A DNA stretch of 64,000 bases, taken from contig NC_089457.1 in the NCBI RefSeq assembly GCF_026210795.1, positions 930,001 through 994,000 on the forward strand, given 5' to 3'. Below, piece by piece: positions 32,604-58,862 of this stretch. The notes below the pieces were generated by a model, which was not told where the DNA came from, searched no databases, and was given only the letters and a program-made list of their open reading frames with translations. The position numbers and the translations under genes were made by a program. How positions within the stretch are numbered: position 1 is the first letter of the stretch; each line of letters starts with the position of its first letter. Origin of the DNA: Rhizophagus irregularis (taxonomy: Eukaryota > Glomeromycota > Glomeromycetes > Glomerales > Glomeraceae).

Positions 32604-32684
32604 AATTATATATGCTAATTTAATTTTTTTCTTTACTATTATTTTTATGATTTGATTTACAATAAAATCTATATTTACTCTTTT

Positions 32685-33365: not shown

Positions 33366-33582
33366 ATATTGCTATAATTCACGTTGTTTTAGAACTTAAA
33401 ATAAAAAAATTAAAACAGTAAATAGTAGAATATTACATTTTATTTCCAGTAACGCGTATTTCTCACCTGAAAAAACAGATGGGTTTGTGAGAAAAGAGAT
33501 GGGTTTTGCTCTTAGTTTTGTTGATTTTAGATGGTTTCTAGTGGTCATTTGAGGTTAACGTAACAATTAGTGACATCACAAA

Positions 33583-35764: not shown

Positions 35765-35790
35765 ATATTACGTAATAAATGTCATGGCCC
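35765..35790 (-). repeat. right terminal inverted repeat of the 6.9-kb element
   Basis: 26-bp inverted copy of 28,896-28,921 with no mismatch, followed by the target duplication TAA at 35,791-35,793. Confidence 0.95.
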
Positions 35791-38700
35791 TAAAGGCTTT
35801 AGGTGTCATGCATTCAAATAAAGGAACACTTTCATCTAACAAGGATAGGTTCGGAAGCTTCGAAAGTTGAGTATGAAGCAAACGAAAAGGAGTAGAAGTT
35901 AAGAGAGCAATAGTGCAAGCGATATAATCTTTCTTAAAAGAAAATAAAGAGACCATATAGACCAATCCTTAATTAAAAGAGGAGAAATAGGAATCAAAAA
36001 ATTATATTGAATTAAACGCAATCTATAAATAAAAAGAGATTGAATAAAAGAGGAAGAAGAATTAGCCATTAAAAATAAATTGGTAATATGACATTGCCAT
36101 TGATGAGCAAACAAATTAATTAAGCCCAAGGCTTGAGACAAAAATAAAATGGGATTGGGTAAAGAACGAGAAAAATTTGCTTTATGCTTCACAACAGATC
36201 GTATACTTCTCGTTATTAGGTGGCAGTCAGATTCAGACAAGTGAGTAACTTGCATCCGGTATTCGAGTTTCGGTATAAGAACAGCATTATGTAAATACAC
36301 AACTTGTTTGGGAGAGAGCTTTGCCGGTCGGATGGTCGCAGCAAAGGAGCAGCATTCGCGTTTAAGTTGCTTTCTGACAAAATCACGGGAACTCTTAATG
36401 TTAAACCAGACACCTAAAAAACGAAAAGAAGTTGTCATGGAAATTGGGGTAATAATAATAGAAGGAACACTATTTAAAGAGGATAAATCCAAATTAAAAG
36501 TAATAGGGGATAAAGTGGAATTCGAAGTCAAAGGCAACGAATTAGTAATTAACACATATTTGTTATGATTGGCAGAAGTGTTGTTGATCTGATAAAATTC
36601 TTCAGTAATAGATAACATAAATTCCATGCCAGCTTTTGACGAGGAAATAAGAGTAGAGTCATCCATAAAGACTAAATTATTAATCTTCAAATCAGAAGAA
36701 GAAGTCGAAGAATTAATTAAGGACGGTGTAGAAAGAACATAAGGGTCCATCATTTCATTTTTCAAAACAGTAAGTAAGGGATCAATATAAATAACCCATA
36801 AAAGAGGAGAGATAACTTCGCCTTGGTCAATACCAATGCGAACCCTATAAGCAGGCGTAGATCCATGAGCAGTGAAAACGCGATTAGTGCGTTTCGTGAA
36901 AAGTGAAAGGATAAACTTAACAGCGGAAGCTGAGAGACGGATACGTTCTAGAGCAAAACGTAACATAGTCAGATCGACCAAGTCAAAAGCCTTAGAAATA
37001 TCTTGGGAAAGAATCCAAAGCGGATTTTGTTGATATCAGCATCATGGATAATAGATTCTAGAGTAATGATAGGGTCGCGGCAAGAACCACCGAGAAGACC
37101 AGCGAAGTTACCACCTTTAAGAACATCATGTGAAGCCATAATAGTAGAAAGGCGATTATAAAAAAGTTTGACAAGGGATTTTCTAATCACTTCGAGTAAA
37201 GTAATAGGACGAGTATTTTTTAATTGACATTTCCATTCGTGAGGTTTGGGGATGGGAAAAACCATTGCTTGTCGCCATAAATCAGGGATATCAGCTTTGG
37301 AAAGGCATGCTTGAATTAAAATAAGTAGCAAAGCCGAGGTACGGGTACCAAGATGTTTAAGCATTTCATAGGTAATCATGGAAGGACCAGAGGCTTTACC
37401 GTTAGGAGTGGAAGAAACGGTGGATAACCATTCATCAAGGGTAGGGGGATTCATTAAAGAATCATAGATGGAGGAGGACACATCATCCATAGGTTGGTAG
37501 GCAGTAGACCATTTAGCCGGTAGTGTATCAAGAGACACCGGCGGAGTGGACTTTATAGGTACAAAATTTTGGAAAAGGTTAATAACCGCATCATCTATGT
37601 CCTTAGAATCAGTTAACAACTGAGGGTGAGTGGGATGGTCGATAAAGACACGGTCCAGAGTGATACGGCGATGGGTGCGAGAAAGCGCTGAATCAATAAA
37701 GGAGGAAAGGTCAGTTTCAAAATTATTATTTCTATCATCCAAATGGGCACGAATGGAGGAATCTTGAAATTCTTTTTCTTGAAGCAACTGAAATCCACGT
37801 AAGGATTTTGAAATAGTGGATAAATCATCAAGAAGTGACTTGAAGTTATCATGTCGACATGATGAAAGAGAAGAGGGCAAAATAGGAATGAAAGTAAATA
37901 CATTTTTATATAATTGTAAAATGTTTTGAAGTCTAATTAAATGAGTAGACCACTTATGTTCATGGGCAGCAGAAAAAGTGGAAGGATGTTTGCGCAATAT
38001 ACGTATCAAATGCATCAGGCGATTTAAAAACCGATAATGTTGAGTTAAAATTTCCAGATCTTTAGGGACCTTAGGAGTATAATTGTTACCAACTATATAA
38101 GAAGGTAAAGTAACATTGCCAGCTTTGAGGATTCGTGATTGAAGATATTCGCACATTTGGTTGATATGCCAGGAGGAAAAGGTTGAAGGTGAAACATCAC
38201 ATAAAGCATCAGTTTGGGCAGCGAATTCCGTCCATTGAATATCAGTTACAGAATCAAATTTGAAGACGCGACGGGTTTGACGCTTAAGTTGTCGAGTGCG
38301 AGCCAATTTGGTAGAGGTAAAAAGTAAAGACATATCATAGTATGTGATGACAGGGTTATGATCAGATGTGCAAATGTCTTGAGCATTAAAAATGCAAGCA
38401 GTAAGGGCATATCCTTTGAGGAGAGGGCAAGACCATACATAATCAACGCGAGTAATTTGGTCATTGCGATGAAAGGTACCTAAGGAGTTGGAAAGATTAA
38501 TAGAAGTATAGTCTTCATATCCATGAGAAAGGAGATGAAAAAATAATCGGTGAATATGTTTTGAAGCAATTTGAGGTTGATTAAAGTAAATAGGATAATA
38601 TTTATCTAAATGCATATTAAAATTGCCACAAACAGCATGGTAAAAACCAGCTTGTTTAGTAAGGGTAAGTTGTTGAATAAGCAAATCAATAGTGTCAGTG

Positions 38701-39206
38701 CGCAAAACACTTTCGGCAGGGGGAGGGATATAAATAACGAATATACGCAATTTAACATTGCCTTTAAAATATAAGTCAACAGAAAGCAAACGTGAAGAAT
38801 GGGATTGAAAATCTTGTACATGCGAAGCAAAAGAATTTTCTATAAAAAGAGAAATACCACCAGAGGAAAGAATTTGTTTAGAAGTATCCAAATTAGAAGA
38901 GAACACAGTATAATTAGAAATGCGCTTGGATAAAAACTTCATTTGTTTAGGGTGAAGATGAGTATCAACGATACCACCAAAAGAAATATGTTTCAAGGAA
39001 AAGAAAGTAGAAATTTCATCTAATTTAGTCTGACCATGCATTTTAAGGCCATTAACATTAAAAGAGGAAATATTAAATGAATTGGGGATAGGAGAAGTGT
39101 TACTAGAGGAAGAAAATAACGATTCATGTGAAAAAATATCCGTAACATTATCAGGGTTGGGAGGGTTGCGTACAAAGGTGTCATAAGTAAAATTATTGTC
39201 CGACAT
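35791..39206 (-). pseudogene. LINE copy A ORF2, endonuclease and reverse transcriptase part
   Basis: It begins MSDNNFTYDTFVRNPPNP. An AP-endonuclease-like domain follows with SFNVNGLK, GGIVDTHLHPKQ, CGNFNMHLDKY, ITRVDYVWS and SDHNPVI. The reverse transcriptase has PNGKASGPSMITYEML, IPKPHEWKCQLKNTRPITLL, motif B GIDQGEVISPLLWVIY and catalytic FMDDSTL (about 36,650-36,670). One base is lost near 37,027, just before motif A, breaking the frame. The frame then runs into the TIR of the inserted DNA transposon after ECMTPKAF. Compared with sister copies, the RT core has all key residues apart from the frame break. Confidence 0.9.
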
Positions 39207-39256
39207 TAAAACACAATGATAAAAACAGTCGGGGAGTTAAAATTTAAAGAAGAAAA

Positions 39257-41358
39257 TTAAACAGAAGCAGCTGAATCAGCTTGTTCCAGGGGAGCACCAC
39301 CAAGGGAGCCAATGAATTGTTTGATATGACCAGTGAGTTGATCCAATTTACTTTCAATAACGACTCTACTATTTTTGAGATCGTTAATTTCTTCTTGCGT
39401 GGAGGAAAGAGGGGTAAAAGGAGGAGCATTTGGGGAAAGGTGAGAAGGAGGGAGCGAGGTGTTAGGAACAATAGTGAATGTAGGCGAAGGTCGCGTTAAA
39501 ATACTTTTGGGGGGCAAGGAATATTTAGCGGAAGACTGAATATTAAGCGGAACATGAGTAACAGGGGCATCTTCTTGCATGAGATCCGGTTCAGGCTCAT
39601 TAGGCGAAGGAAGTGGATCGAGGCCAAGGTGTGATTCAATACGAGACATCCATTGGTCAGCAAGTTCAAGAGCGGAGATGCGTTTGTGAAAGTTGGCTAC
39701 TTCACATTGTAATTCACGCAAAAGGTTAAGAATGTTATTAGCATCATCAGGAGATAATGCAGAGTTAGGAGTTTGTCGGGGCAAGGGACGTGCTGTAGAA
39801 CGAGAGGAAGAAGAAAAGGAGACCGATCGTTCTTTGCTATTATGGCGGGCACGTTGGGAGATATTGGGAACGGGTTTGTTATGATTTTTATCATTATTGT
39901 TATCACGTCCAGAATTGGAAGCAGATCAATCTTTAGATTTGGAGCGAGATCAGGAGCGAGAACGTGCATTAGCAGTCTTAGAATTGGAGCGGCGAGATTG
40001 ATTAACATTAAAACGTTCTTTGAGTTTTACAACAGGGTCGCGAGTGCGACTTCTGCCTCTAGTTTGTTTAAGTGGGCAGAAATTTGGGGCGCAACCTAAT
40101 TTGCCACATCTGTGACAAAGTTTATTAGTATTATCTGGGGAAGACCAGAAAAGTACATGACCTTGGAAGCTAATAGTTTGTTCCATAGCAGCATCCATGG
40201 TTTCTTGGGAGTTGAAGGTGACATAAGCCCATCTTTTGGGTTTGTAAGAATTCAGAGAAAGTGGCACATTAACAGCTTTGGTGCCAAGATTACGAGTAAG
40301 AGGAGCCAAGTTGATATCCTTAACATTAGGGGGAAGCTGAGTGAGAGTGGCGACGTATTGACGGCGCGCAGCCTTTTGATCTATAGTATAGAAACATGGG
40401 GTGATTCTGAGGCAGGTGGAAAAACAGTATACAGCCCATTGATCGGTAAAACGAGCAATTGAATCGGCGTGATCATATACAATACGGGCTTGCTGGACTT
40501 TGGCATTGGGCTGGAAAAGAGGCGGCAAGAGGTGATATTACCAAATTTTTTAAAATAAGCCAACAGATTGTCCTTTTTAATGAAGAAAGGGATATCGGTA
40601 ACTTGGATAGCCCGGAGATCTTCATTGGATCAGAGTTGGCGAGGGTCATGTGCATGAAAAATTAAGTCAGGGAACTCAGGATGAGTGGAACCAACGCACA
40701 AATCGCGTGCTTCAGCGGTATGGAAGTGGATAATGAGGCGTTTGGCTTCGCCAGAGCCAGTCATACGTGCTTTTCCAGTAAACGACTCATAAGTTTCTAA
40801 AAAAAGGTTATTAACAGCCTCAATAAGGGCTTTGTTGGTAGGGAATTTCTTAAGAGATTCAGGGGCAGCATTCGGCGCAGCCGCAGCCTGAAAATCATCT
40901 CTGGTTATGGTGAGGGTCACCACTGGATCAGGAGTTTGATCATCATCTGGAGCATCGTTGGTATCTAAATTTGGTGACGCGTTAGGGGGTTGTTGCAAGT
41001 CTTTGTTTGAAGGTGCATGCATGGACGCGTCCACATTTCTAGGAGACGTAATGTGACTGGACGCAGTTGGCGCAGCAGATTTGTTCGGGGAGGAGGTCAA
41101 AGTATTTTCGCCAGAGATATTTTGTTGAGGAGAAGAGGAAGGTCCATCTACTCCAACGTCAGCCGTCTGGGCGTCGGCAACGTAGTCTTCTTCCATAGAA
41201 TTTTCGGTAATCGTACGATTACGTTTCTGCTGGATAGTGTTTTCACCATCGGAGCTTGAATTATCAGAGTTATTGTTGTTTTTTCGTTCTTGACGGGAAG
41301 CTTTCCTACTGTTAGGGTTATGACTTCCACGGCCTCTCTTGGCATAGTTACCAGACAT
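39257..41358 (-). pseudogene. LINE copy A ORF1: RRM-like, zinc-knuckle, coiled-coil protein
   Basis: Starts MSGNYAKRGRGSHN with a Ser/Asn/Pro-rich N-terminus (41358 to about 40900). An RRM-like fold follows (WAIQVTDIPFFIKKD, FKKFGNITSCRLF). After a 1-nt loss near 40,525 comes a second RRM-like segment (KRWAYVTFNSQETMDAAM) and then a zinc knuckle, CHRCGKLGCAPNFC. An Arg/Ser-rich stretch then carries an in-frame TGA near 39,950. The end is a coiled-coil module (NLLRELQCEVANFHKRIS) up to 39,257. ORF1 proteins of this type bind the element RNA. The frameshift and the TGA are both also present in copy C. Confidence 0.85.
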
Positions 41359-41492
41359 AGTAGAGGGCTTTGAGTTGGGAATATATAAAATATAAAATTT
41401 TATTAGTAGCTTGTATTATTTTTTAAAAATAATAAAAAATTATTTTCGTCGGAAATTTTTGTTTTTGAAAATTTCAGGAGAGAGTTTTTACT

Positions 41493-42495
41493 ACTAGTCA
41501 AAAACCAGGCAAACGTGGCATAGTAGCCTTTATCTTTATTAAATTTATTCGAACTTTGACAATTTACAAAAATAAAAAGAAAGATATAAAAATAAAACTA
41601 ACTAAAAACAAAGCTATATAGTCTCCTAAGAAAAAATAAAGTAAAAAATTAATCTAAAAAAAGAAAAATCGCATTACACTAAATTTCCCCCAGATCTTCC
41701 CCCTTGATATATTCCAACCAAAGTAGAAGCAACTATGCTAACAAAATAACGAATAGCGCGCCCACTATAAAAATCGACACTCCATCCTGCAAAAGCTGTT
41801 ATTAAGTAGCACCGTTAGACGACCCATAAAACCCGAAAAGTGATTAAACCAAGGCAAACCATATTTCATCGAGTTCTTCAACCAATCGGTTCCGGAGTCA
41901 CGTGAATCGTGTAGGGTCGGAGGTGGTAAAGATGAGTAAGGTATGTACGTCGACAATGGCAGATTGGATGGCTTCGGAGTAGTTTTCAACTTATAGGTAA
42001 TGTTCATCGCGTTTTCCCATTTACTTTTCTCATAAGAACGCGGATTCCAGATTCGTCTTCTGAATTTCTGGACAAAATTGTTATGAATAGCAGCGATAAC
42101 TTTAATCGCAGAAGTTCTTGGAATGGATAAATCAACAAATAAGTCGATGAAGAGTTTGGGTAAGCAACCACGGATAAGGGCGAAGGAGGACCAATTTGTA
42201 GAAGAAAAGGACCAGCATGAAAGAGAAGTAAGTTTAGCTATAAATGGAGTAGGATCAGTATCAACTAAATTACTCGCTTCCAGAAGTTTGGAAATCAAAT
42301 GACTTTGATAAGATTGGAGAATTTGCTGCATAGGCAAACGTCGTTTTTTGCACATAAAAAGGTGCATCAGGTCTTCCATGCGGTCGATACAAGAACGGCA
42401 AGTTAATTCGTCCATGTATAAGTCTGGTCAGGTCCGTTTAAGCTTTTCCAGTGTAGGCAAATCATCCAAGAAAAGTTTGAATTTAAAGGTTAGGT
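41493..42495 (-). mobile_element. LINE copy B, 5'-truncated 1-kb fragment
   Basis: On the minus strand the fragment opens inside ORF2 (CCTAACCTTTAAATTC...) directly after the tip motif of the palindromic element. It encodes the C-terminal finger CRSCIDRMEDLMHLFMCKKRR (frame 42415-41765, intact to ECRFL) and ends with the family 3' UTR at the motif next to copy A. Truncation at the 5' end is the normal outcome of incomplete reverse transcription. Confidence 0.9.
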
Positions 42496-42789
42496 ACTAG
42501 TCAAAAACCAATATATCGGGTAGCAGATATGTATCAGATATGTACCCGATATGTGTAGTATTAATGCAGAAAATCGGGTATCTGATATGTGTAAGATATG
42601 TGTAAATATATATATCGTCTACATATCATTTACATATCATATACATATTAGTACCCGATATGTATATGATATATATATTTACACATATCTTACACATATC
42701 GGGTACCCAATTTTCTGCATTAATACTACACATATCGGGTACATATCTGATACATATCTGCTACCCGATATATTGGTTTTTAACCAGTA
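42496..42789. mobile_element. palindromic foldback element (MITE) 1, about 294 bp
   Basis: Almost the whole element is one imperfect palindrome. ACTAGTCAAAAACCAATAT at the left is mirrored by ATATTGGTTTTTAACCAGTA at the right. Arms of about 140 bp contain repeated GATATGTA/TACATATC and CCCGATATGTGTAGTATTAA words. It has no coding capacity. The LINE copies on the two sides run outward from its two tips (B leftward, C rightward). Copy 2 at 56,501-56,795 shows the complete ends, CACTGG...CCAGTG. Confidence 0.88.
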
Positions 42790-42919
42790 GTAACTCTCTC
42801 CTGAATTTTTCAAAAACGAAAATTTCTGACGAAAATAATTTTTTATTATTTTTAAAAAATAATACAAGCTACTAATAAAATTTTATATTTTATATATTCC
42901 CAACTCAAAGCCCTCTACT

Positions 42920-45041
42920 ATGTCTGGTAACTATGCCAAGAGAGGCCGTGGAAGTCATAACCTTAACAGTAGGAAAGCTTCCCGTCAAGAACGAAAAAAT
43001 AATAACAACTCTGATAATTCAAGCTCCGATGGTAAAAATACTGTCCAGCAAAAACGTAATCGTACGATTACTGAAAATTCTATGGAAGAAGACTACGTTG
43101 CCGATGACCAGACGGCTGACGTTGGAGTAGATGGCCCTTCCTTTTCTTCTCAACAAAATATCTCTGGCGAAATACTTTGACCTCCTTCCCGAATAAATCT
43201 GCTGCGCCAACTGCGCCCAGTCACGTCGCATCTTCTGAAAATGTGGACGCGTTCATGCATGCGCCTTTGAACAAAGACTTGCAACAACCCTCTATCGCGT
43301 CGCCCAATTTAGATACCAATGGTGCTCCAGATGGCAATCAATCTCCAGATCCAGTGGTGACCCTCGCCATAACCAGAGATAATTTTCAGGCTGCGGCTGC
43401 GCCGAATGCTGCCCCTGAATCTCTTAAGAAATTCCCTACCAATAAAGCCCTTATTGAGGCTGTTAATAACCTTTTTTTAGAAACTTACGAGTCATTTACT
43501 GGAAAAGCGCGTATGACTGGTTCTGGTGAAGCCAAACGCCTCGTTATCCACTTCCATATCGCTGAAGCACACGATTTGTGCGTTGGTTCCACTCATTCCG
43601 AGTTCCCTGACTTAATCTTTCATGCACATGATCCTCGCCAACTCCGATCTAATGAAGATCTTCGGGCCATCCAAGTTACCGATATCCTCTTTTTCATTAA
43701 AAAGGACAACCTGATGGCTTATTTTAAAAAATTTGGTAATATCACCTCTTGCCGCCTCTTTTCCAGCCCAATGCCAAAGTCCAACAAGCCCGTATTGTAT
43801 ATGATTACGCCGATTTAATTGCTCGTTTTACTGATCAATGGGCTGTATACTGTTTCTCCACCTGCCTCAGAATTACTCCATGTTTCTATACTATTGATCA
43901 AAAGGCTGCGCGCCATCAATACGTTGCCACTCTCACTCAGCTCCCCCCTAATGTTAAGAATATCAACTTGGCTCCTCTTACTCGAAATCTTGGCGCCAAA
44001 GCTGTTAATGTGCCACTTTCTCTAAATTCTTACAAACCCAAAAGATGGGCTTACGTCACCTTCAACTCCCAAGAAACTATGGATGCTGCTATGGAACAAA
44101 CCATTAGCTTCCAAGGACATGTACTTTTCTGGTCCTCCCCAGATAATACTAATAAACTTTGTCACAGATGTGGCAAATTAGGTTGCGCCCCGAATTTCTG
44201 CCCACTTAAACAATCTAGAGGTAGAAGTCGCACTCGCGACCCTGTTGCAAAACTCAAAGAACGATTTAATGTCAACCAACCTCGCCGCTCCAATTCTAAT
44301 ACTGCCAATGCACGTTCACGCTCCTGATCTCGCTCAAAATCTAAAGATCGATCTGCTTCCAATTCTAGACGTGACAATAACATCTCCCAGGACCGTACTA
44401 ATAAGGATAAAATTCATAACACACCAAATCCCAATACTTCCCAACGTGCCCGCCATAATAGCAAAGAACGATCGGTTTCCTTCTCTTCCTCCTCTCGTTC
44501 TACAGCACGTCCCTTGCCCCGACAAACTCCTAACCCTGCATTATCACCTGATGATACTAATAACATTCTAAACCTTTTGCGTGAATTACAATGTGAAGTA
44601 GCCAACTTCCACAAACGCATCTCCGCTCTTGAACTCGCTGACCAACGGATGTCTCGTATTGAATCACACCTTGGCCTCGATCCACTTCCTTCGCCCAATG
44701 AGCCTGAACCGGATCTCATGCAAGAAGATGCCCCTGTAATTCATGTTCCACTTAATATTCAGTCTTCCGCTAAATCTTCTTCGCCCCCCAAAAGTATTTT
44801 AACGCGACTTTCGCCTACAATCACTATTGTTCCTAACACCTCGCTTCCTCCTTCTCACCTTTCCCCAAACGCTCTCCCTTTTACCCCTATCTCCTCCACG
44901 CAAGAAGAAATTAACAATCTCAAAAATAGTAGAGTCGCTATTGAAAGTAAATTGGACCAACTCACTGGTCATATCAAACAATTCATTGGCTCCCTTGGTG
45001 GTGCTCCCCTGGAACAAGCTGATTCAGCTTCTTCCAATTAA
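42920..45041 (+). pseudogene. LINE copy C ORF1
   Basis: Same layout as the copy A ORF1: MSGNYAKRGRGSHN start, RRM-like IQVTDILFFIKKDN, second RRM-like KRWAYVTFNSQE, knuckle CHRCGKLGCAPNFC (about 44,160-44,205), Arg/Ser stretch and terminal coiled coil. Lesions are a 1-nt loss near 43,170, a 1-nt loss near 43,770 (SSPMPKS instead of SRPNAKV) and a TGA at about 44,325. The last two are identical in copy A. Confidence 0.85.
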
Positions 45042-45092
45042 TTTTCTTCTCCAAATTCTACCTCCCCGACTGTTTTTTTTCATTGTGTTTTA

Positions 45093-48000
45093 ATGTCGGA
45101 CAATAATTTTAATTATGATGCCTTTGTACGGAAATCTCCCAACCCTGATGATGTTACTGAAATTTTTTCACATGAATCTTTATTTTCTTTTTCCAGTAAC
45201 ACTTCTCCTATACCCAACTCATTTAATATTTCCTCCTTTAATGTTAATGGCCTTAAAATGCATGGTCAGACTAAATTAGAAGAAATTTCTACTTTCTTCT
45301 CTTTAAAACATATTTCTTTTGGTGGTATCGTTGATACTCATCTCCACCCTAAACAAATGAAGTTTTTATCCAAGCGCATTTCTAATTATACTGTGTTCTC
45401 TTCTAATTTGGATACTTCTAAACAAATTCTTTCTTCTGGTGGTGTTTCTCTTTTTATAGAAAATTCTCTTGCTTCGCATGTACAAGATTTCCAATCTCAT
45501 TCCTCACGCTTGCTTTCTGTTGACTTATATTTTAAAGGCAATGTTAAATTGCGTATATTTGTTATTTATATCCCTCCCCCTGCTGAAAGTGTTTTGCGCA
45601 CTGACACTATTGATTTGCTTATTCAACAACTTACCCTTACTAAATAAGCTAGTTTTTACCATGCTATTTGTGGCGATTTTAATATGCATTTAGATAAATA
45701 TTATCCTATTTATTTTAATCAACCTCAAATTGCTTCAAAACATATTCACCGATTATTTTTTCATCTCCTTTCTCATGGATATGAAGACTATACTCCTATT
45801 AATCTTTCCAACTCCTTAGGTACCTTTCATCGCAATGACTAAATTACTCACGTTGATTATGTATGGTCCTGCCCTCTTCTCAAAGGATTTGCCCTTACTG
45901 CTTGCATTTTTAATGCTCAAGACATTTGCACATCTGATCATAACCCTGTCATCACATACTATGATATGTCTTTACTTTATGCCTCTACCAAATTGGCTCA
46001 CGCTCGACAACTTAAACGCCAAACCCGCCGCGTCTTTAAATTTGATTCTGTAACTGATATTCAATGGACGGAATTTGCTGACAATGCTGATGCTTTATGT
46101 GACATCCCACCTTCAACCTTTTCCTCCTGGCATATCAATTAAATGTGCGAATATCTTCAATCACGAATCCTCAAAGCTGCCAACGCTACTTTACCTTCTT
46201 CTATTGTTGGCAACAATTATACTCCTAAGGTCCCTAAAGATCTGGAAATTTTAACTCAACATTATCCATTTTTAAATCACCTAATGCATTCGATTCGTCT
46301 ATTGCGCAAATATCCTTTAACTTATTCTACTGCTCATGAACATAAGTGGTCTATACATTTGCATAGACTTCATAACATTCTTCAATTGTACAAGAAAGTT
46401 TTTACTTTCATCTTTACTTTGCCCTCTTCTCTTTCATCATGTCGACAAGACAATTTCACGTCACTTCTTGATGATTTATCCAATATTTCAAAATCCTTAC
46501 GAGGATTTCAATTGCTTCAAGAAAAAGAATTTCAAGATTCCTCCGTTCGTGCTCATTTGGATGATAGAAATAACAATTTTGAAACTGACCTTTCCTCCTT
46601 TATCGATTCAGCGCTTTTTCGCACCCGTCGCCGTATCACTCTGGACTGTGTCTTTATCGACCATCCCACTCACCCTCAGTTGTTAACTGATTCTAAGGAC
46701 ATAGATGATGCAGTTATTAACCATTTCCAAAATTTTGTGCCTATAAAATCCACTCTACCGGTGTCCTTTGATACACTACCGGCTAGATGGTCTACTGCCT
46801 ACCAGCCTATGGATGATGTGTCCTCCTCCATCTTTGATTCTTTAATGAATCCCCCTACCCTTGACGAATGGTTATCCACCGTTTCTTCCACTCCTAACGG
46901 TAAAGCCTCTGGTCCTTCCATGATTACCTATGAAATGCTTAAGCATCTTGGTACCCGCACCTCGGCTCTGCTACTTATTTTAATTCAATCATGCCTCTCC
47001 AAAGCTGATATTCCTGATTTATGGTGACAAGCAATAGTTTTTCCCATCCCCAAACCTCACGAATGGAAATGTCAATTAAAAAATATTCGTCCTATTACTT
47101 TACTCAAAGTGATTAGAAAATCCCTTGTCAAACTTTTTTATAATCGCCTTTCTACTATTCTGGCTTTACATGATGTCCTTAAAGGTGGTAACTTCGCTGG
47201 TCTTCCTGGTGGTTCTTGCCGCGACCCTATTATTACTCTAGAGTCTATTATCCATGATGCTGATATCAACAAAAACCCACTTTGGATTCTTTCCCAAGAT
47301 ATTTCTAAAGCTTTTGACTCGGTCGATCTGACTATATTACATTTTGCTCTAGAACGCATCCGTCTTCCAGCTTCTGCTGTTAAGTTTATCCTTTCACTTT
47401 TCACGAAACGCATTAATCGCGTTTTCACTGCTCATGGATCTACGCCTGCTTATAGGGTTCGCATTGGTATTGACCAATTTCTCCTCTTTTATGGGTTATT
47501 AATATTGATCCCTTACTCACTGTCTTGAAGAATGAAATGATGGACCCTTATGTTCTTTCTACACCGTCTTTAAGTGATTCTTCGAATCCTCTTCCTGATT
47601 TGAAGATTAATAATTTAGTATTTATGGATGACTCTACTCTTATCTCCTCGTCAAAAGCTGGCATGGAATTTATGTTATCCATTACTGAAGAATTTTATCA
47701 GATCAATAATACTTCTGCCAATCATAACAAATATGTGCTAATTACTAATTCGTTGCCTTTAACTTCGAATTCTACTTTATCTCCTATTACTTTTAATTTG
47801 GATTTATCCTCGTTAAATAGTGTTCCTTCCATTACCATTACCCCAATTTCCATGACAACTTCTTTTCGTTTTTTAGGTGTTTGGTTTAACATTAAAAGCT
47901 CCCGGGACTTTGTCAAAATGCAACTCAAACGTGAATGCTGTTCGTTCGCTGCAACCATCCGGCCCGCAAAGCTCTCTTCCAAACAAGTTGTGTATTTACA

Positions 48001-50709
48001 TAATGCTGTTCTCATACCGAAACTCAAATACCGGATGCAAGTTACTCACTTGTCTGAATCTGACTGCCACCTAATAACGAGAAGTATACGATCTGTTGTG
48101 AAGCATAAAGCAAATTTTTCTCGTTCTTTACCCAATCCCATTTTATTTTTGTCTCAAGCCTTGGGCTTGATTAATTTGTTTGCTCATCAATGGCAATGTC
48201 ATAGTACCAATTTATTTTTAATGGCTAATTCTTCTTCTTCTTTTATTCAATCTCTTTTTATTTATAGATTGTGTTTAATTCAATATAATTTTTTGATTCC
48301 TATTTTTCCTCTTTTAATTAAGGATTGGTCTATATGGTCTTCTTTATTTTCCTTTAAAAAAGATTATATCGCTTGCACTATTGCTCTCTTAACTTCTACT
48401 CCCTTTCACTTGCTTTATACTCAACTTTCGAAGCTTCCGAACCTATCCTTGATAGATGGACGCGTTCCTTTATTTGAATGCATGACACCTAAGGCCTTTA
48501 AAGCCTATTTCCCTATTTTGCGAAAACGACAATTGTTTTATTTATCTCAGCTTGTTACTCCCCAAGGATCTCATTTAATTTCCTGGAAGGCTTACTATGA
48601 CAATTTGGTTGGACGACGTGGCCCTGGCCATATCCTTTTTGGTACAAAGATATTCAACAAGTTACCACTGTTCCTGACTCCAATAATCGTCTGCAGGATC
48701 GTTTTATTATTACGCATACGAATGACTTGTCATCTTATGAATTGACTCCTTGTCTATCTTCTCCTCCCACTACAAAAAATTGGATTGTCACGTTGGATGA
48801 TTATGGTTCTCCCATTTTTGGCAAACAACTATTGGTCCAAGCAAGTCGTGGTACTTATTCTATTGTTCACTGGATTTCTCCTGATTGTGAATCTTCGCCT
48901 GGTGATCTCATTAGACTTTCTCCCTGCCCTGGTTGCGCTGCTCATACTCCTTTGCCTCCTTCCAAAAAACGGAATGCTGATTTAACTCTTTGTACGCCTA
49001 CGATTTCTCTACAACATTCGCTTATTCTGCCCACTACCAATGAGCGGATTAGATGTACTACTTCTGAAGTGACTTCCCCTTTTACTTGGGCTGATATAGA
49101 AGATAGTGTCCGTCTTTATTACAGTAGATTGGATTTTGACTCTGATTCCCCTTCTGCAGTTACCGTCGTAGCTCCTGCTACTCCCGTCACTATTGAATCT
49201 TCAGCTGCTGCTGTTTTTGCAAATTCCCCGTTGGTCATGTCTTCGGACTCACGTTACATTTTTTTCACTGATGGGTCTCTTATTAATTTAGGCGCTCCTG
49301 ATGTTTCTATGGGTTGGTCCTGGATGCAAATGGTTCCTGATGCAGGTTTTCCTAACTCCATTGCTACTTATGCTCATGGCCTTATTCGAGATAATCCTTC
49401 TTCTTCTCGAGCTGAAGCTGCCGCTATTTACGCAGTTTTAACCATCTCTCCTCGTGACTCAGAAGTTACTATTTATACTGACTCGCAAATTGCCATTGAT
49501 GGCCTTCAAAATTGTTCTTCCTATGTGTACTCAAATAGCCGTCTTTACTACAAAACAACAAATTTCGAGCTTTGGGCTATTATTGAACGAACCATCTTTT
49601 CTAAGAATTTAACAGTTCTTCCTGTCAAAGTCAAAGCTCACTCTGGCAACTATTTAAACGATTTTGCTGATTCCTTGGCCAACACTGCTCATACTGCGTC
49701 ATCCAGTATTTTGATCTCTGGAATGGATCTAGCCTCTGCCCATGATTTTGTCTTAACTTATGACAATGACATTGTCTGTGAATCTAATCCGCGACACCTT
49801 CTCAAACAATATTATCAAACGCAGTTAATGCGTAATTTGTTAAATTTAACGCGATTTCACTTTATTTCTTTATTATCTTCTAATATAGATTATATTGTTG
49901 ACTGGGAACTTACTTGGTTCACTTTGAATTTCAAGCCTTCTCATGATGCATCTTTTACCCCTGAGTACGCTTCAAGACACCTAACCTTTAAATTCAAACT
50001 TTTCTTGGATGATTTGCCTACATTGGAAAAGCTTAAACGAACCCGACCAGACTTATACATGGACGAATTAACTTGCCGTTCTTGTATCGACCGCATGGAA
50101 GACTTGATACACCTTTTTATGTGCAAAAATCGGCGTCTGCCTATGCAACAAATTTTACAATCTTATCAAAACCATTTGATTTCCAAAATTCTGGAAGCTG
50201 GAAAATTGGCTGACATTGATCCTACTCCATTTATTGCTAAACTCACTTCTCTTTCATGCTGGTCCTTTTCTTCTACAAATTGGTCCTCCTTTGCCCTTGT
50301 CCGTGGTTGTTTACCCAAATTTTTCATCGACTTATTTGTCGACTTATCCATTCCAAGAATTTCTGCGATTAAGGTTATCGCTGCTATTCATAATAATTTT
50401 GTTCAAAAATTCAGAAGACGAATTTGGAATCCGCGTTCTTATGAAAAATGTAGATGGGAAAACGCGATGAATATTACCTATAAGTTGAAAACTACTCCGA
50501 AGCCATCTAATTTGCCATTGTCAACATACATACCTTACTCATCTTTACCGCCTCTGACCCTACACGATTCACGTGACTCTGGAACCGATTGGTTGAAGAA
50601 CTCGATGAAATATGGTTTGCCTTGGTTTAATCACTTTTCGGGTTTTATGGGTCGTCTAACGGTGCTACTTAATAACAGCTTTTGCAGGATGGAGTGTCGA
50701 TTTTTATAG
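45093..50709 (+). pseudogene. LINE copy C ORF2 (endonuclease, RT, RNase H, C-terminal finger)
   Basis: Endonuclease (SFNVNGLK, GIVDTHLHPKQ, SDHNPVI), RT (SQDISKAFDSVD, FMDDSTL), RNase H (FTDGS, RAEAAAIYAV, YTDSQIAIDG, NDFADS) and the finger CRSCIDRMEDLIHLFMC are all recognisable in order. Lesions are TAA at 45,646, 45,841 and 46,141, TGA at 47,025, a loss of about 10 nt in RT motif B near 47,477 (GIDQ then off frame) and a frameshift near 48,640. The last 660 codons (48727-50709) are open throughout and contain the complete RNase H. Confidence 0.9.
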
Positions 50710-51129
50710 TGGGCGCGCTATTCGTTATTTTGTTAGCATAATTGCTTCTACTTTGGTTGGAATATATCAAGGGGAAAGATCTGGGGAAATTTAGTGTAAT
50801 GCGATTTTTCTTTTTTAGATTAATTTTTTACTTTATTTTTTCTTAGGAGACTATATAGCTTTGTTTTTAGTTAGTTTTATTTTTATATTTTTCTTTTTAT
50901 TTTCTGTAAATTGTAAAGTTCGAATAAATTTAATAAAGATAAAGGCTACTATGCCACGTTTGCCTGGTTTTTAACCAGTGTTGGTTTTTAACCAGTAGTA
51001 GTAACTCTCTCCTAAATTTTTCAAAAACTAAAATTCCGACGAAAAATATTTTTTATTATTTTTAAAAATAATACAAGCTACTAATAAAAATTTTATATTT
51101 TATATATTCCCAACTCAAAGCCCTCTACT

Positions 51130-53253
51130 ATGTCTGGTAACTATGCCAAGAGAGGCCGTGGAAGTCATAACCCTAACAGTAGGAAAGCTTCCCGCCGAAC
51201 GAAAAAATAATAACAACTCTGATAATTCAAGCTCCGATGGTGAAAACACTATCCAGCAGAAACGTAATCGTACGTTTACCAAAAATTCTATGGAAGAAGA
51301 CTACGTAGCCGATGACCAGACGGCTGACGTTGGAGTAGATGTACCTTCCTCTTCTTCTCAACAAAATATCTCTGGCGAAAATACTTTGACCTCCTCCCCG
51401 AAAAAATCTGCTGCGCCAACTGCGCCCAGTCACGTCGCGTCTTCTGGAAATGTGAACGCGTCCATGCATGCACCTTTGAACAAAGACTTGCAACAACCCC
51501 CTAACGCGTCTCCTAATTTGGATTCCAATGGTGTTCCAGATGGCGATCATACTCCTAATCCAGTAGTGACCCTCGCCATAACCAGAGATGATTTTCTGGC
51601 TGCGGCTGCGCCGAATGCTGCCCTTGAATCTCTTAAAAAATTCCCTACCAATAAAGCCCTTATTGAGGCTGTTAATAACCTTTTTTTAGAAACTTACGAG
51701 TCGTTTACTGGAAAAGCGCGTATAACTGGTTCTGGCAAAGCCAAACGCCTCGTTATTCACTTCCATACCGCTAAAGCACGCGATTTGTGCATTGGTTCCA
51801 CTCATCCTGAGTTCCCTGACTTGATCTTTCATGTACACGACCCTCGCCAACTCCAATCTAATGAAGATCTCTGGGCTATCCAAGTTACCGATATCCCTTT
51901 CTTCATTAAAAAAGACAGCCTCATGGCTTATTTTAAAAAATTTGGTAATATCACCTCTTGCTGCCTCTTCTCCAGGCCTAATGCCAAAGTCCAACAAGCC
52001 CGTATTGTATATGATCACGCCGATTCAATTGCTCGTTTTACCGACCAATGGGCTGTGTATTGTTTCTCCACCTGCCTCAGAATTACTCCGTGTTTTTATA
52101 CTGTGGATCAAAAGGCTGCGCGCCGACAATACGTTGCCACCCTCACTCAACTTCCCCCCAACGTTAAAGATATCAACTTGGCTCCTCTTACTCGTGACCT
52201 TGGCGCTAAAGCTGTCAATGTGCCACTATCTTTAAATTCTTACAAACCCAAAAGATGGGCTTATGTCACTTTCAATTCCCAAGAAACTATGGACGCTGCT
52301 ATGGAACAGACTGTCAGCTTCCAAGGCAAGGTGCTTTCCTGGTCCTCCCCTGATAATACTAATAAACTTTGTCACAGATGTGGCAAATTAGGTTGCGCCC
52401 CAAATTTTTGTCCACTCAAACAAACTAGAGGACGTAGTCGTACTCGCGACCCTGTGGCAAAACTTAAAGAGCGTTTTAACGTCAATCAACCTCCTCGCCG
52501 CTCCAATTCTAATGCTGCCAATGCACGTTCACGCTCCCGTTCCCGCTCCAAATCTAAAGATCGATCTGCTTCCAATTCTGGACGTGATAAAAACATTTCC
52601 CATGACCGCACTAATAATGATAAAAATCATAACAAACCAAATCCCAATCATTCCCAACGTGCCCGCCATAATAGTAAAGAAAGATCGGTCTCGTTTTCTT
52701 CCTCCTCTCGTTCTACAGCACGTCCTTTGCCCTGACAAACCCCCAACTCAGCATTATCTCCTGATGATGCTAACAATATTTTAAACCTCTTGCGCGAATT
52801 GCAATGCGAAGTTGCTAATTTTCACAAACGCATTTCCGCTCTTGAACTTGCTGACCAACGGATGACTCGTATCGAATCACACCTTGGCCTTGATCAGCTT
52901 CCTAGTCCTAATGAATCTGACTTGGATCTTATGCAAGAAGATGCCCCTGTATTCCATGTTCCACTTAACATTCAGCCTTCCGCTAAATCTCATTTACCCC
53001 CAGAAGTATTTTAACGCGACTTCTGCCTCTTACCACTATTGTTCCTAACACGTCGCTTCTTCCTTCTCACCTTTCCCCTAATGCTCCTCCTTTTACCCTT
53101 ATCTCCTCAACGCAAGAAGAAATTAACGATTTCAAAAATAGTAGAGTCGCTATTGAAAGTAAATTGGACCAACTTACCGGTCATATCAAACAATTCATTA
53201 GCTCCATTGGTGGTGCTCCCTTGGAATCAGCTAGTTCAGCTCCTTCCAATTAA
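51130..53253 (+). pseudogene. LINE copy D ORF1, nearly intact
   Basis: The ATG at 51,130 (MSGNYAKRGRGSHNPNSRKAS) is followed by a 2-nt loss near 51,196. After that the frame is open to a TGA at 52,733-52,735. It covers both RRM-like segments, including the intact FSRPNAKVQQARIVYDHADS that copies A and C have lost, and the knuckle CHRCGKLGCAPNFC. The coiled coil follows (52,790-53,014 and beyond) with another frameshift near 53,010. This is the best-preserved ORF1 of the family here. Confidence 0.87.
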
Positions 53254-53306
53254 TTTCTTTTTCTTCAAATTCTACCACCCCGACTGTTTTTTATCATTGT
53301 GTTTTA

Positions 53307-56300
53307 ATGACGGACAATAATTTTAATTATGATACCTTTGTACGGAACCCTCCCAACTCCGATGATGTTACTGAAATTTTTTCACATGAATCTTTATTTT
53401 CTTCTTCCAGTAACACTTCTCCTATCTTCAACTCATTTAATATTTCCTCCTTTAATGTTAATGGCCTTAAAATGCATGGTCAGACTAAATTAGAAGAAAT
53501 TTTTACTTTCTTTTCTTTAAAACATATTTCTTTTGGTAGTATCGTTGATACTCATCTCCACCCTAAACAAATGAAGTTTTTATCCAAGTGCATTTCTAAT
53601 TATACTGTGTTCTCTTCTGATTTGGATACTTCTAAACAAATTCTTTCTTCTGGTAGTGTTTCTCTTTTTATAGAAAATTCTCTTGCTTTACATGTACAAG
53701 ATTTTCAATCCCATTCTTCACGTTTGCTTTCTGTTGACTTATATTTTAAAGGCAATGTTAAATTGCGTATATTTGTTATTTATATCCCTCCTCCTGCTGA
53801 AAGTGTTTTGCGCACTGACACTATTGATTTGCTTATTCAACAACTTACCCTTACTAAACAAGCTGGTTTTTACCATGCTGTTTGTGGCGATTTTAATATG
53901 CATTTAGATAAATATTATCCTATTTATTTTAATCAACCTCAAATTGCTTCAAAACATATTCACCGATTATTTTTTCATCTCCTTTCTCATGGATATAAAG
54001 ACTATACTCCTATTAATCTTTCCAACTCCTTAGGTACCTTTCATCGCAATGACCATATTACTTGCGTTGATTATGTATGGTCTTACCCTCTTCTCAAAGG
54101 ATATGCCCTTACTGCCTGCATTTTTGATGCTCAAGACATTTGCACATCTGACCATAACCCTGTTATCACATACTATGATATGTCTTTACTTTTTGCCTCT
54201 ATTAAATTGGCTCGCGCTCGACAACTTAAGCGCCAAACCCGTCGCGTCTTCAAATTTGATTCTGTAACTGACATTCAATGGACGGATTTCGCTAACAAAG
54301 CTGATGCTTTATATGACGTCTCCCCTTCAACCTTTTCCTCCTGGCATATCAATCAAATGTGCGAATATCTTCAATCACGAATCCTCAAAGCTGCCAACGT
54401 TACTTTACCTTCTTCTATTGTTGGCAACAACTATACTCCCAAGGTCCCTAAAGATCTGGAAATTTTAACACAACATTATCAGTTTTTAAATCGCCTAATG
54501 CATTCGATACGTCTATTGCGCAAATATCCTTTAACTTATTCTGCTGCTCATGAACATAAGTGGTCTATACATTTGCATCGACTTCAAAACATTCTTCAAT
54601 TATATAAGAAAGTTTTTACTTTCATTCCTACTCTGCCCTTTTCTCTTTCATCATGTCGACAAGATAATTTCAAGTCACTTATTGACGATTTATCCAATAT
54701 TTCAAAATCCTTACGAGGATTTCACTTACTTCAAGAAAAAGAATTCCAAGATTCTTCCATCCGTGCTCACTTGGACGATAGGAATAATAATTTTGAAACT
54801 GACCTTTCCTCTTTCATCGATTCAGCGCTCTCTCGCACCCGTCGCCGTATCACTTTGAACCATATCTTCATCGACCATCCTACTCAACCCCAGTTGTTAA
54901 CTGATCCTAAGGATGTAGATGATGCTGTTGTTAACCATTTCCAAAACTTTGTACCTATAAAGTCCACTCCTCCTGTATCTTTCGATACATTACCTGATAG
55001 ATGGTCTTCTGCCTATCAACCTATGGATAATTTGTCCTTCTCCATCTATGATTCTTTAATGAATCCCCCCACCCTTGATGAATGGTTATCCACCGTTTCT
55101 TCCACTCCTAACGGTAAAGCCTCTGGTCCTTCCATGATTACCTATAAAATGCTCAAACATCTTGGAACCCGTACCTCGGCTCTGCTTCTTAATTTAATTC
55201 AAGCCTGCCTTTCCAAAGCTGATATTTCCGACTTATGGTGACAAGCAATGGTCTTTCCCATCCCCAAACCTCACGAATGGAAGTGTCAATTAAAAAATAC
55301 TCGTCCTATTACTTTACTTGAAGTGATTAAAAAATCTCTTGTCAAACTTTTTTATAATCGCCTTTCTACTATTATGGCTTCACATGATGTTCTTAAAGGT
55401 GGCAACTTCACTGGTCTTCCTGGTGGTTCTTGCCGCGACCCTATTATTACTTTAGAATCTATTATCCATGATGCTGATACCAACAAAAACCCACTTTGGA
55501 TTCTTTCACAAGATATCTCTAAAGCTTTCGACTCAGTCGATTTGACTATGTTACGTTTTGCTCTAGAACGTATACGTCTTCCAGCCTCCGCTGTTAAATT
55601 TATCCTTTCTCTTTTCACGAAACGCACTAATCGCGTTTTCACTGCTCATGGATCTACGCCTGCTTATAGGGTTCGCATTGGTATTGACCAAGGCGAAGTT
55701 ATTTCTCCTCTTTTATGGGTTATTTATATTGATCCTTTATTGACTGTTTTGAAGAATGAAATGAAGGACCCTTATGTTCTTTCTACACCGTCTTTAATTG
55801 ATTCTCCTAATCCTTCTCCTGATTTGAAGATTAATAACTTAGTATTTATGGATGACTCTACTCTTATTTTCTCGTTGAAAGCTGGCATGGAATTTATGTT
55901 ATCCATTATTGAAGAATTTTATCAGATCAATAACACTTCTGCCAATCATAACAAATATGTGTTAATTACTAATTCGTTGCCTTTGACTTCGAATTCCATT
56001 TTACCCCCTATTACATTTAATTTGGATTTATTCTCTTTAAATAGTGTTCCTTCCATTACTATTATCCCAATTTCCATGACAACTTCTTTTCGATTTTTAG
56101 GTGTCTGGTTTAACATTAAGAGCTCCCGGGATTTTATCAAAAAGCAACTCAAACGCGAATGTTGTTCATTCGCTGTGACCATCCGCCCCGCAAAACTCTC
56201 TTCCAAACAAGTTGTGTATTTACATAATGCTGTCCTTATACCGAAACTTGAATACCGGATGCAAGTTACTCACTTGTCTGAATCTGACTGCCACCTAATA

Positions 56301-58862
56301 ACGAGAAGTATACGATCCGTTGTAAAGCACAAAGCAAACTTTTCTCGTTCTTTGCCCAATCCCATTTTATTTTTGTCTCAAGCCTTGGGCTTGATTAATT
56401 TGTTTGCTCATCAATGACAATGTCATATTACTAATTTATTTTTAATGGCTAATTCTTCTTCTGCTTTTATTCAATCTCTTTTTATTTATAGATTGAGTTT
56501 CACTGGTCAAAAACCAATATATCGGGTAGCAGATATGTATCAGATATGTACCCGATATGTGTAGTATTAATGCAGAAAATCGGGTACCCGATATGTGTAA
56601 GATATATGTAAATATATATATCATATACATATCGGGTACCGATATGTATATGATATGTAAATGATATGTAGATGATATATATATTTACACATATCTTACA
56701 CATATCAGGTACCCGATTTTCTGCATTAATACTACACATATCGGGTACATATCTGATACATATCTGCTACCCGATATATTGGTTTTTGACCAGTGTTTAA
56801 TTCAATATAATTTTTTGATTCCTATTTCTCCTCTTTTAATTAAAGATTGGTCCATATGATCTTCTTTATTTTCTTTCAAGAAAGATTATATCGCATGCAC
56901 TTTTGCTCTTCTAACTTCTACTCCTTTTCGTTTGCTTCACACTCAATTATCGAAGCTTCCGACTTTGTCCTTGTTAGATGGACGCGTTCCTTTATTTGAA
57001 TGCATGACGCCTAAAGCTTTTAAAGCTTATTTCTCCATTCTGCAAAAATGACAACTATATTATTTATCTCAGCTTATCACTCCCCAAGGAACTCATTTAA
57101 TTTCTTGGAAGGCTTACTATGACAATTTGGTCGGCCGACGTGGCCCTGGCCATATTCCTTATTGGTACAAAGATATTCAACAAGTTACCACTGTTCCTGA
57201 CTCCAATAATCGTTTGATGGATCATTTTATTACTATGCATATGAATGACTCTTCATTTTATGAATTGGCTCCCTGTTTATCCTTTCCTCCCACTACTAAA
57301 AATTGGATTGTCACGTTGAATGATTATGGTTCTCCGATCTTTGGCAAACAACTTTTGGTCCAAGCAAGTCATGGTACTTGTTCTATTGTTCACTGGATTT
57401 CTCCTGATTGTGAATCTTCGCCTGGTGATCTCATTAGACTTTCTCCTTGCCCTGGTTGCGCTGCTCATACTCCTTTGCCTCCTTCCAAAAAACGGAATGC
57501 TGATTTAACCCTTTGTACGCCTACGGTCTCTCTACAACATTCGCTTATTTTGCCTACTACCAATGAGCGGATTAGACATACTACTTCTGAAGTGACTTCC
57601 CCTTTTACTTGGGCTGATATAGAAGATGGTGTCCGTCTTTATTATAGTAGATTGGATTTTGATTTTGATTCTCCTCTTTCTGCAGATACCGCTGTAGCTT
57701 CCGTTACTCCTGTCACTATTAAATCCTCAGCTGCTGCTGTTTTCGCAAATTCCCCGCTGGTTGTTTCCTTAGATTCACGTTATATCTTTTTCACTGATGG
57801 GTCTCTTATTAATTTAGGCACTCCTGATGTTTCCATGGGTTGGTCTTGGATGCAAATTGTTCCAGATGCAGGCTTTCCTAACTCCATTGCCACTTATGCT
57901 CACGGCCTTATTCGAGACAATCTTTCTTCTTCTCGCGCTGAAGCTGCTGCTATTTACGCAGTTTTAACTATCTCTCCTCGTGACTCAGAAGTTACTATTT
58001 ATACTGACTCGCAAACTGCCATTGATGGCCTTCGAAGTTGTTCTTCTTCTGTCTACTCGAATAGTCGTCTATACTTCAAAACTACAAATTTTGAGCTTTG
58101 GGCTATTATTGAGCGAACTATCCTCTCCAAAAATTTGACAGTCCTTCCTGTCAAAGTTAAAGCCCACTCTGGCAACTATTTAAACGATTTTGCTGATTCC
58201 TTGGCCAACATTGCTCATACCGCGTCATCCAGTATTTTGATCTCTGGAATAAAACTGGCTTCTGCCCATAATTTTGTCTTAACCTATGACAATGATATTG
58301 TCTGTGAATCTAATCCACGATACCTTCTCAAACAATATTATCAAACGCAGTTAATGCGTGATTTGTTAGACTTAATGCGATTTCACTTTATCTCTTTATT
58401 ATCATCTAATACAGATTACATTGTCGACTGGGATCTTACCTGATCCACTTTAAATTTCAAGCCTTCTCATGATGCATCCTTTACTCCTGAGTATGCTTCA
58501 AGAAACTCAACTTTTAAATTCAAACTTTTCTTGGATGATTTACCTACATTGGAAAAGCTCAAACGGACTCGACCAGACTTATACATGGACGAATTAACTT
58601 GCCGTTCTTGTATCGATCGCATGGAAGACCTGATGCACCTTTTTATGTGCAAAAATCGTCGTCTGCCTATGCAACAAATTCTTCAATCTTATCAAAATCA
58701 TTTGATTTCCAAAATTCTGGAAGCCGGGAAACTGGCTGAAATTGATCCTACTCCATTTATTACTAAACTCACTTCTCTTTCATACTGGTCCTTTTCTTCT
58801 ACAAACTGGTCCTCTTACGCCCTTGTCCGTGGCTGTTTGCCCAAACTTTTTATTGACTTATT
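53307..58862 (+). pseudogene. LINE copy D ORF2
   Basis: MTDNNFNYDTFVRNPPNSDD starts a 644-codon open stretch (endonuclease and start of RT) to a TGA at 55,239. A second open stretch, 55248-56417, holds the RT core intact (SQDISKAFDSVDL, GIDQGEVISPLLWVIY, FMDDSTL). After the palindromic insertion at 56,501-56,795 come TGA at about 56,858 and 57,049. The RNase H is at 57127-58443 (FTDGS, RAEAAAIYAV, YTDSQTAIDG, NDFADS), then TGA at 58,441. The finger CRSCIDRMEDLMHLFMC precedes the break at 58,862. Confidence 0.9.
56501..56795. mobile_element. palindromic foldback element (MITE) 2 with 3-bp target duplication
   Basis: Terminal inverted repeats CACTGGTCAAAAACCAATAT / ATATTGGTTTTTGACCAGTG at 56,501 and 56,795. 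The adjacent TTT is present on both sides (56,498-56,500 and 56,796-56,798) but only once in copy C, confirming insertion with a 3-bp duplication. CACTG ends and a 3-bp duplication fit a non-autonomous CACTA (En/Spm, CMC) element. It is 295 bp, almost wholly palindromic, with no open frame of interest. Confidence 0.9.

Follow-up and report, generated by a model that had tools for sequence, protein, structure and literature searches.

Tx1L, a long interspersed nuclear element (LINE) of the frog Xenopus laevis, is said to insert into the DNA transposon Tx1D. Transposons are included among LINE targets in the accessible text of PMC4640811, where the target-specific LINEs of the Tx1 and R1 clades are stated to encode an APE-type endonuclease, and "other TEs" (transposable elements) are given as LINE targets in that of PMC8869645, with the Tx1L endonuclease paper cited there. 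Here we describe a LINE family of approximately 8.2 kb in Rhizophagus irregularis, copies of which lie at the tips of MITE-1, a palindromic miniature inverted-repeat transposable element (MITE). The stretch analysed, termed the window, comprises 64,000 bp (C29:930001-994000; contigs are given C numbers and loci L numbers) and the genome searched was the 146,748,485-base assembly of 32 contigs. With a probability of roughly 0.94, the composite in the window reflects a site-specific LINE that uses a 14-15 bp target at the MITE tip, (T)RGTTTTTRACYAGT, and renews this target on insertion, which would proceed by target-primed reverse transcription. On the best reading, the lineage to which it belongs would have switched targets.

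The exact motif GGTTTTTRACYAGT occurs eight times in the window, against 0.004 occurrences expected from base composition. The features of the composite, in window coordinates, are as follows.

26409-26422, 41493-41506 and 42496-42509, minus strand: exact motif GGTTTTTRACYAGT
42775-42788, 50966-50979 and 50983-50996, plus strand: exact motif GGTTTTTRACYAGT
56502-56515 (minus) and 56781-56794 (plus): exact motif GGTTTTTRACYAGT at both tips of the second MITE-1 copy
26405-26422, minus strand: outer left end, comprising the motif (26409-26422), the terminal base (26408) and TAT (26405-26407)
26423-28900, minus strand: LINE copy A, 3' part, beyond an inserted DNA transposon
35791-41492, minus strand: LINE copy A, 5' part
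41493-41506, minus strand: 14 bp target-site duplication between B and A, GACTAGT variant
41507-42495, minus strand: LINE copy B, 5'-truncated, starting at position 7191 of copy C
42496-42788: MITE-1 copy 1, palindromic, CACTA-like, tips GACTAGT (left) and AACCAGT (right)
42789-50965, plus strand: full-length LINE copy C with locally broken frames, ending ...TTTGCCT
50966-50996, plus strand: doubled motif GGTTTTTAACCAGT-GTT-GGTTTTTAACCAGT between C and D
50997-56500, plus strand: LINE copy D, first part, with ORF1 (open reading frame 1; RRM match), endonuclease match and reverse transcriptase (RT) region
56501-56795: MITE-1 copy 2, intact, inside D, an unoccupied target with a 3-bp duplication TTT
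56796-58862, plus strand: LINE copy D, second part, resuming outside the window at 67423-68063 (window numbering)
58863-59129, plus strand: MITE-2, left part, inserted in D, with AGGACCCC... ends and an 8-bp duplication GACTTATT
59116-59129: target of a second LINE family, LINE-Z, CGAAAGTGTGACTT, in MITE-2
59130-64000, plus strand: LINE-Z in MITE-2, with a 14-bp duplication, running on to 67378 outside the window

Both tips of the first MITE-1 copy are split by LINEs just before the terminal C or G. The 5' junctions of copies A, B, C and D lie directly behind the motif, as the first-pass annotation of this DNA had read them, with an extra AGT or AGTAGT between motif and LINE body in copies A, C and D; the left copies are flanked by GACTAGT and the right copies by AACCAGT, like the respective tips of the palindrome, again as that annotation described. 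Its placement of the motif at the 3' ends stands with corrected starts (26409, 41493 and 50966), as does its placement at the tips of the palindrome, the extent of which is amended to 42496-42788, without the terminal C and G. The left outer end reads TAT, then C, then ACTAGTCAAAAACC. Copy D ends at 68063 (window numbering, outside the window); beyond it come AGTTTTTAACCAGT, a G and then TAT. Approximately 42 kb is therefore still enclosed by the two TAT copies of the MITE's 3-bp duplication. The outer motif of copy D has A as its first base, against G at the tip.

Site preference and the duplicated target

A LINE-only query consisting of the first 150 bases of copy C yielded 70 candidate 5' ends in the genome, of which the best 40 were scored: 38 flanks read outside the window and those of C and A within it. 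Ends were assigned by fuzzy text matches and the upstream sequences were additionally read. All 40 adjoined the motif or a close variant and none lay elsewhere. A MITE-1 tip was found at 24, in each case beside RGTTTTTRACYAGT or a close variant; 13 lay on a motif behind the 3' end of another copy, and three on a motif behind the 3' end of a companion element, X (23, 12 and three, respectively, for the 38 flanks outside the window). Tips were altered at L003, L020 and L029, and L036 was without the first LINE bases. The further altered tip at L003 contained GGTTTTCG.

For the 3' ends, the 22-base LINE end GGCTACTATGCCACGTTTGCCT was searched with up to two mismatches, giving 198 matches in the genome. 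Of the 100 matches listed, 71 were exact and 29 had one mismatch. We read 80 loci: 68 that account for the 69 exact matches lying beyond the window, and 12 from the head of the one-mismatch list. Sixty-three of the 68 exact-match loci continued into the motif or a close variant. Of the 12 one-mismatch ends four were motif-bearing, seven carried TGAYAAGGACTGATGA instead and belong to a third family, LINE-Y, and the motif of L111 was degenerate. Most of the insertions examined thus lie at one sequence, the property that defines a target-specific LINE, and the junction pattern first noticed in the window extends to both ends of copies across the genome. Viewed from the target, the terminal G came next at 108 exact-pattern MITE-1 tips, some of which had an element after that G, and 55 tips had a different base there. 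Among 20 of these 55, selected rather than drawn at random, 14 held a LINE (12 clearly 5'-truncated) and three held X (L150, L151 and L157).

In the copies read, whether full-length or 5'-truncated, the LINE began directly outward of a complete motif and a second complete motif nearly always lay beyond it; at the outer end of an array came the last base of the MITE and then its old 3-bp duplication. The motif had been proposed to be a target-site duplication, and this was borne out by the 26 copies with both ends read (23 in the genome, of which the L007 and L037 pairs, approximately 15 kb apart, were treated as interrupted copies, and three in the window). The 5' and 3' motif variants were identical in 22 of 26, whereas 100,000 shuffles averaged 6.4 and never exceeded 16, and the first motif base (G or A) was the same at both ends in all 26. 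Likewise, in 14 of 15 cases the 3-bp duplication of MITE-1 had survived the insertion of LINEs (at most 8 matches, and 1.3 on average, in shuffles). A first automatic comparison had given four matches in ten pairs, and the six misses were examined one by one: at L007 and L038 the far tip of the occupied MITE held a truncated X; at L016 and L034 it held another LINE, and the duplications matched when the outer ends were used; at L036 it read outward, by eye, into an X-like start; L031 was a true mismatch and is retained within the count. Left out of the 15 pairs were C28:215040 (degraded tip) and C12:5078908 (chain not read through), both TAT/TAT by eye, and six whose array ends were unreached (C11:3498991, C6:2598544, C1:258717, C25:245584, C10:2327946 and C5:1869864). 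No LINE end was found in regions L172, L176 and L177, taken at guessed array ends. As the outer motif is followed by the MITE G and the 3-bp duplication, and the variants agree, the 14-15 bp represent duplicated target DNA; the ambiguity of one base in this length arises from a T that stands before the motif in MITE and LINE alike.

These data bear on the alternative, raised by the first-pass annotation, of a LINE that itself terminates in the motif and pairs with the MITE tip during priming. In this case the RNA would bring the motif with it, and no target-site duplication would be made. Such an arrangement would account for the motif after 63 of 68 3' ends and for L028 and L031, where the seventh base of the motif is C inside and T outside (GGTTTTC against GGTTTTT), as if the outer part were RNA-derived. 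It is at odds with the agreement of variants, and of the first base, across the element, and with the MITE G and 3-bp duplication that follow the outer motif. The LINE body ends in TTTGCC(T), the variant follows the target, and LINE-Z and LINE-Y share the TTTGCC end yet are followed by other targets. We therefore reject it as the main explanation and consider it very improbable. The two exceptional loci lie at C12:2497780 (L031/L082) and C17:593604 (L028/L085), where the outer copy may have undergone CpG decay.

MITE-1, a long palindrome bounded by CACTRGTY...RACYAGTG, usually measures 295 bp, with a range of 235-319 bp among copies read. The CACTA (CMC/EnSpm) superfamily is defined by ends of the form CACT(A/G)...(T/C)AGTG and a 3-bp target duplication. 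Nineteen copies had both ends complete by pattern; L122, L129 and L131, with an element directly behind the terminal G, were set aside, and the remaining 16 clean copies all showed such ends and a 3-bp duplication. On its sequence MITE-1 fits a putative CACTA-type MITE. The palindrome arms measure 133 bp in MITE-1 (L126) and 89 bp in MITE-2 (L190). The order of events could in principle be the reverse, with a CACTA-like element inserting preferentially at LINE ends, and the MITE-1 copy within D (56501-56795), which has its own TTT duplication, is a case of MITE insertion into a LINE. The complete ends and duplications of the 16 clean copies speak against this, as does the structure of the LINE junctions tested, where the LINE interrupts the MITE and leaves the terminal base and 3-bp duplication of that element on its far side. 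This order is excluded for the junctions tested and has next to no probability overall.

Array growth and 5' junctions

The claim that each insertion leaves a fresh target is upheld by the 67 motif-bearing 3' ends (63 plus four), 30 of which carry a further element: a LINE 5' end in 15, a 5'-truncated LINE in ten and X in five. G and other sequence followed in 34, and other sequence in three. Head-to-tail arrays at MITE tips, as proposed from the window, accordingly recur in the genome-wide samples; a chain on C25 runs through two full-length copies and a truncated one to a fourth copy whose 5' end is complete. Truncated copies start anywhere from position 1053 to 8132 of copy C, with the 3' end fixed. 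At L083 (C12:5094607 and 5094672) two motif-flanked 3' ends lie 65 bases apart, a LINE insertion truncated to approximately 50 bases. Within arrays the target is preceded by LINE sequence (TTTGCCT), without MITE sequence, and is still used (the 30 of 67 ends above), which indicates that recognition needs little beyond the 14-15 bp. The recognised feature seems to be this site rather than the palindrome, and the array insertions argue against a need for a hairpin or cruciform in targeting.

Tandem pairs recur at a spacing of approximately 8.2 kb, as they would if LINE-motif units were multiplied chiefly through unequal recombination or segmental duplication. In the window, however, identity is only 91-92% between the neighbours C and D, and 92-94% between C and either A or B. 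The ten truncated copies behind motif-bearing 3' ends have differing starts, X follows five others, the 5' junctions vary between copies, and both arms of one MITE are used. Growth by recombination is thus highly unlikely as the main process, and repeated insertion is preferred.

For insertion, the endonuclease would nick one strand just inside the motif, and reverse transcription, primed by the freed 3' end, would begin at the fixed RNA end TTTGCC(T). The second cut would fall 14 nt outward on the opposite strand, where CAGT meets the last base, G, of the MITE. LINEs of the APE type tend to make staggers of 10-20 bp, according to the accessible text of PMC6895275. The duplicated motif alone suffices as a target and the next copy can land in either motif, so that head-to-tail arrays arise on one or both arms of a single MITE. 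Landing in dispensable multicopy DNA would be likely to do little harm and would never exhaust the target.

Of the 38 5' junctions outside the window, 37 could be parsed; the other, L004, reads like L001. In 23 of the 37, the motif met the LINE body directly or through AGT repeats, to which a base was added in some cases; a further piece of target sequence intervened in 12 and GAGT in two. Eight of the 12 extra pieces were unlike the local tip (L003, with its altered tip, among them), and that of L016 included MITE sequence upstream of the tip. The AGT repeats would fit short-homology joining to CAGT, and the foreign target pieces would fit transcripts starting upstream of the LINE in its source locus. 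According to the same part of PMC6895275, the 5' junctions of L1 point to template jumping onto target sequence upstream. The two motifs in succession at the C/D junction may belong with junctions of this kind.

Sister families and a companion element

MITE-2, the element inserted in D, is 297 bp long with ends AGGACCCCGGATATC. In addition to the copy in D, all four empty copies read had 8-bp duplications. Target duplications of 8 bp are typical of hAT elements, and MITE-2 appears hAT-like in this respect, although it is not filed as hAT here. The LINE-Z site lies 30 bp from the right end of MITE-2 and reads CGAAAGTGTGACTT in three empty copies and CAAAAGTGTGACTT in L190. The best 40 copies scored, of 802 candidates, were 98-100% identical. 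When the LINE-Z 3' ends were ranked on LINE sequence only, 35 of the best 40 were present in the target-containing list, each aligned through the 14-bp site, and 26 of these 35 ran on into MITE-2; L178 and L179 carried the site with changes. Pattern search with the 3' end of the window LINE-Z returned only that copy, which differs there from its relatives. Behind the LINE-Z target lay LINE-Z 5' ends (L178 and L183) and X-like elements (L184-L187 and L197).

Over most of its length, LINE-Y (L174) has a DNA identity of approximately 73% to copy C, and it recurs at a spacing of 8.2 kb. Its target string, TTGAYAAGGACTGATGA, has 132 occurrences in the genome, LINE-Y ends included, and lies in a 52-bp tandem repeat at the one locus tested (L193). 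Less firmly than for the other families, LINE-Y would be specific for this 52-bp minisatellite unit, as judged from its 3' ends and array junctions. The family-Y 3' ends L107, L108, L109 and L115 lie at different loci with the same downstream sequence, and the 52-bp repeat thus seems to be situated inside a larger repeated element. At the protein level, D and Y are 68% identical over 668 residues including the endonuclease; Z is 59-62% identical to D and Y in a 182-residue endonuclease stretch, and RT stretches are 57-87% identical.

The companion X is a non-autonomous element of approximately 1.27 kb (L173, C1:36205 downward) that occurs at the targets of all three LINE families. Compared with L173, X stretches were 92-97% identical at MITE-1 sites, 96% at the LINE-Y target (L113) and 87-92% at the LINE-Z target (L184-L187 and L197), with L179 80% identical over 79 bases. 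The X 3' end, GCTATGTTTGCCT and variants, resembles the LINE end. From its positions, X may be mobilised by all three LINEs. Its tail similarity to the LINE and the sites common to both would be compatible with a rider of the short interspersed nuclear element (SINE) type, which has a 3' tail in common with a LINE and no RT of its own.

Two features of the window stand apart from the insertion system. The DNA transposon that interrupts copy A at 28901-35790 has inverted ends GGGCCATGACATTTATTACGTAATA and short duplicated LINE sequence at its junctions. Its weak DDE_Tnp_ISAZ013 match at 33583-35394 (E 2e-5) falls short of the curated cut-off, and its 619-aa ORF at 30744-32603 has no Pfam match at E 0.001. 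At 3291-4187 there is a MULE-type transposase fragment with ZSWIM, MULE and FAR1 domain matches.

Classification and comparison with known systems

Domain matches in the LINE lineage comprised RVT_1, RNase_H, RRM_1 and Exo_endo_phos_2. RVT_1 and Exo_endo_phos_2 fell on one ORF in LINE-Y and separately in A and D, respectively, and RNase_H lay downstream of the RT (E 1.4e-11 in C, 1.6e-10 in Y). Comparison of copy C with the window revealed no terminal repeat besides the motif, that is, no long terminal repeats (LTRs). RT and endonuclease on the same ORF, lack of LTRs, a fixed 3' end with variable 5' truncation, and a target-site duplication are those of a non-LTR retrotransposon. The best matches to solved structures were L1 ORF2p for the first half of the RT and R2 for the second, and placement in a clade is ambiguous.

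Several observations weigh against the site-specific LINE proposed here. Five of the 68 exact-match 3' ends were without the motif (L068, L077, L078, L080 and L091), representing internal rearrangements or off-target insertions, three of the 40 LINE-Z 3' ends were without their target (L180-L182), and three of the 20 non-G tips held no known element (L152-L154). Inner and outer motifs differed in four of 26 copies (L001, L021 and the aforementioned L028 and L031), and one of the 15 MITE duplications was mismatched (ATA/AGA, L031). The Exo_endo_phos_2 match exceeded the Pfam curated cut-off in Z but narrowly missed it in D and Y. The scored searches cover the best 40 candidates each, with older or more diverged copies outside the sample.

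The R. irregularis TE paper lists LINE/L1-Tx1 and other LINE families and describes about half of the genome as repeats, in the accessible text of PMC11075540, and the present LINE may be among the families listed. In the main text of that paper "target site" and "nested" are absent and "MITE" occurs once, as a class definition. Among titles and abstract starts of the open-licence literature, there was no MITE-targeting LINE and no site-specific LINE in arbuscular mycorrhizal fungi. LINEs that target transposons are already known, and no report of the Rhizophagus system was found in that literature; its notable features are the self-renewing target, the several targets in one lineage and the rider common to them.

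A broader reading, possible though doubtful, is that one LINE lineage has been re-aimed at least twice among dispensable repeats and that the MITE is both promoter and landing pad. The targets would be the CACTA-like MITE tip, a site near the end of another palindromic MITE, and a unit of a minisatellite, the RNA end TTTGCC being kept and the rider X going wherever its mobilising LINE goes. Transcripts would start in the target-bearing flank, with copies carrying pieces of the source target; the promoter idea derives from the 12 of 37 junctions with a second target piece, eight unlike the local tip.

The system presents, in a symbiont, a mobile element sustained largely by other mobile elements and renewing its target with each insertion. 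With three related LINEs, each with a short target of its own, this genome offers a natural experiment on change of specificity in an APE-type endonuclease, which bears on site-specific gene insertion. The arrays also account for some large repeat blocks, and annotators should be aware that LINE, MITE and companion form composites.

SINE/LINE pairs share 3' tails, according to the accessible text of PMC3747384. X is similar to such pairs in its LINE-like end and its use of LINE sites, and differs in its length and in occurring at the targets of three LINE families. Among fungi, the title of a paper on telomere-targeted LINEs of Magnaporthe oryzae appears in the references of PMC8869645. Those LINEs are likewise fungal and target-specific, with a telomeric target. 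They are presumably the elements named MoTeR. An APE-type endonuclease and strict site specificity are shared with the insect R1 clade (R1, TRAS and SART), the targets of which include ribosomal DNA (rDNA); in contrast to the rDNA or telomeric repeats used by that clade, the targets of the Rhizophagus LINEs are MITEs and a minisatellite. Exchange of the endonuclease domain between SART1 and TRAS1 changes the target, as given in the accessible part of PMC7265360.

On the best reading, the Rhizophagus LINE would resemble the frog Tx1L in its logic, both being target-specific LINEs with an APE-type endonuclease and a DNA transposon as target, the last reportedly so for Tx1L. The Tx1 group is not known to have an RNase H domain. 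Beyond its fungal host, the Rhizophagus LINE may differ from Tx1L in a target at the very tip of a palindromic MITE that it renews itself and on which arrays are formed, in an RNase H domain, and in sister families with other targets that share a non-autonomous companion.

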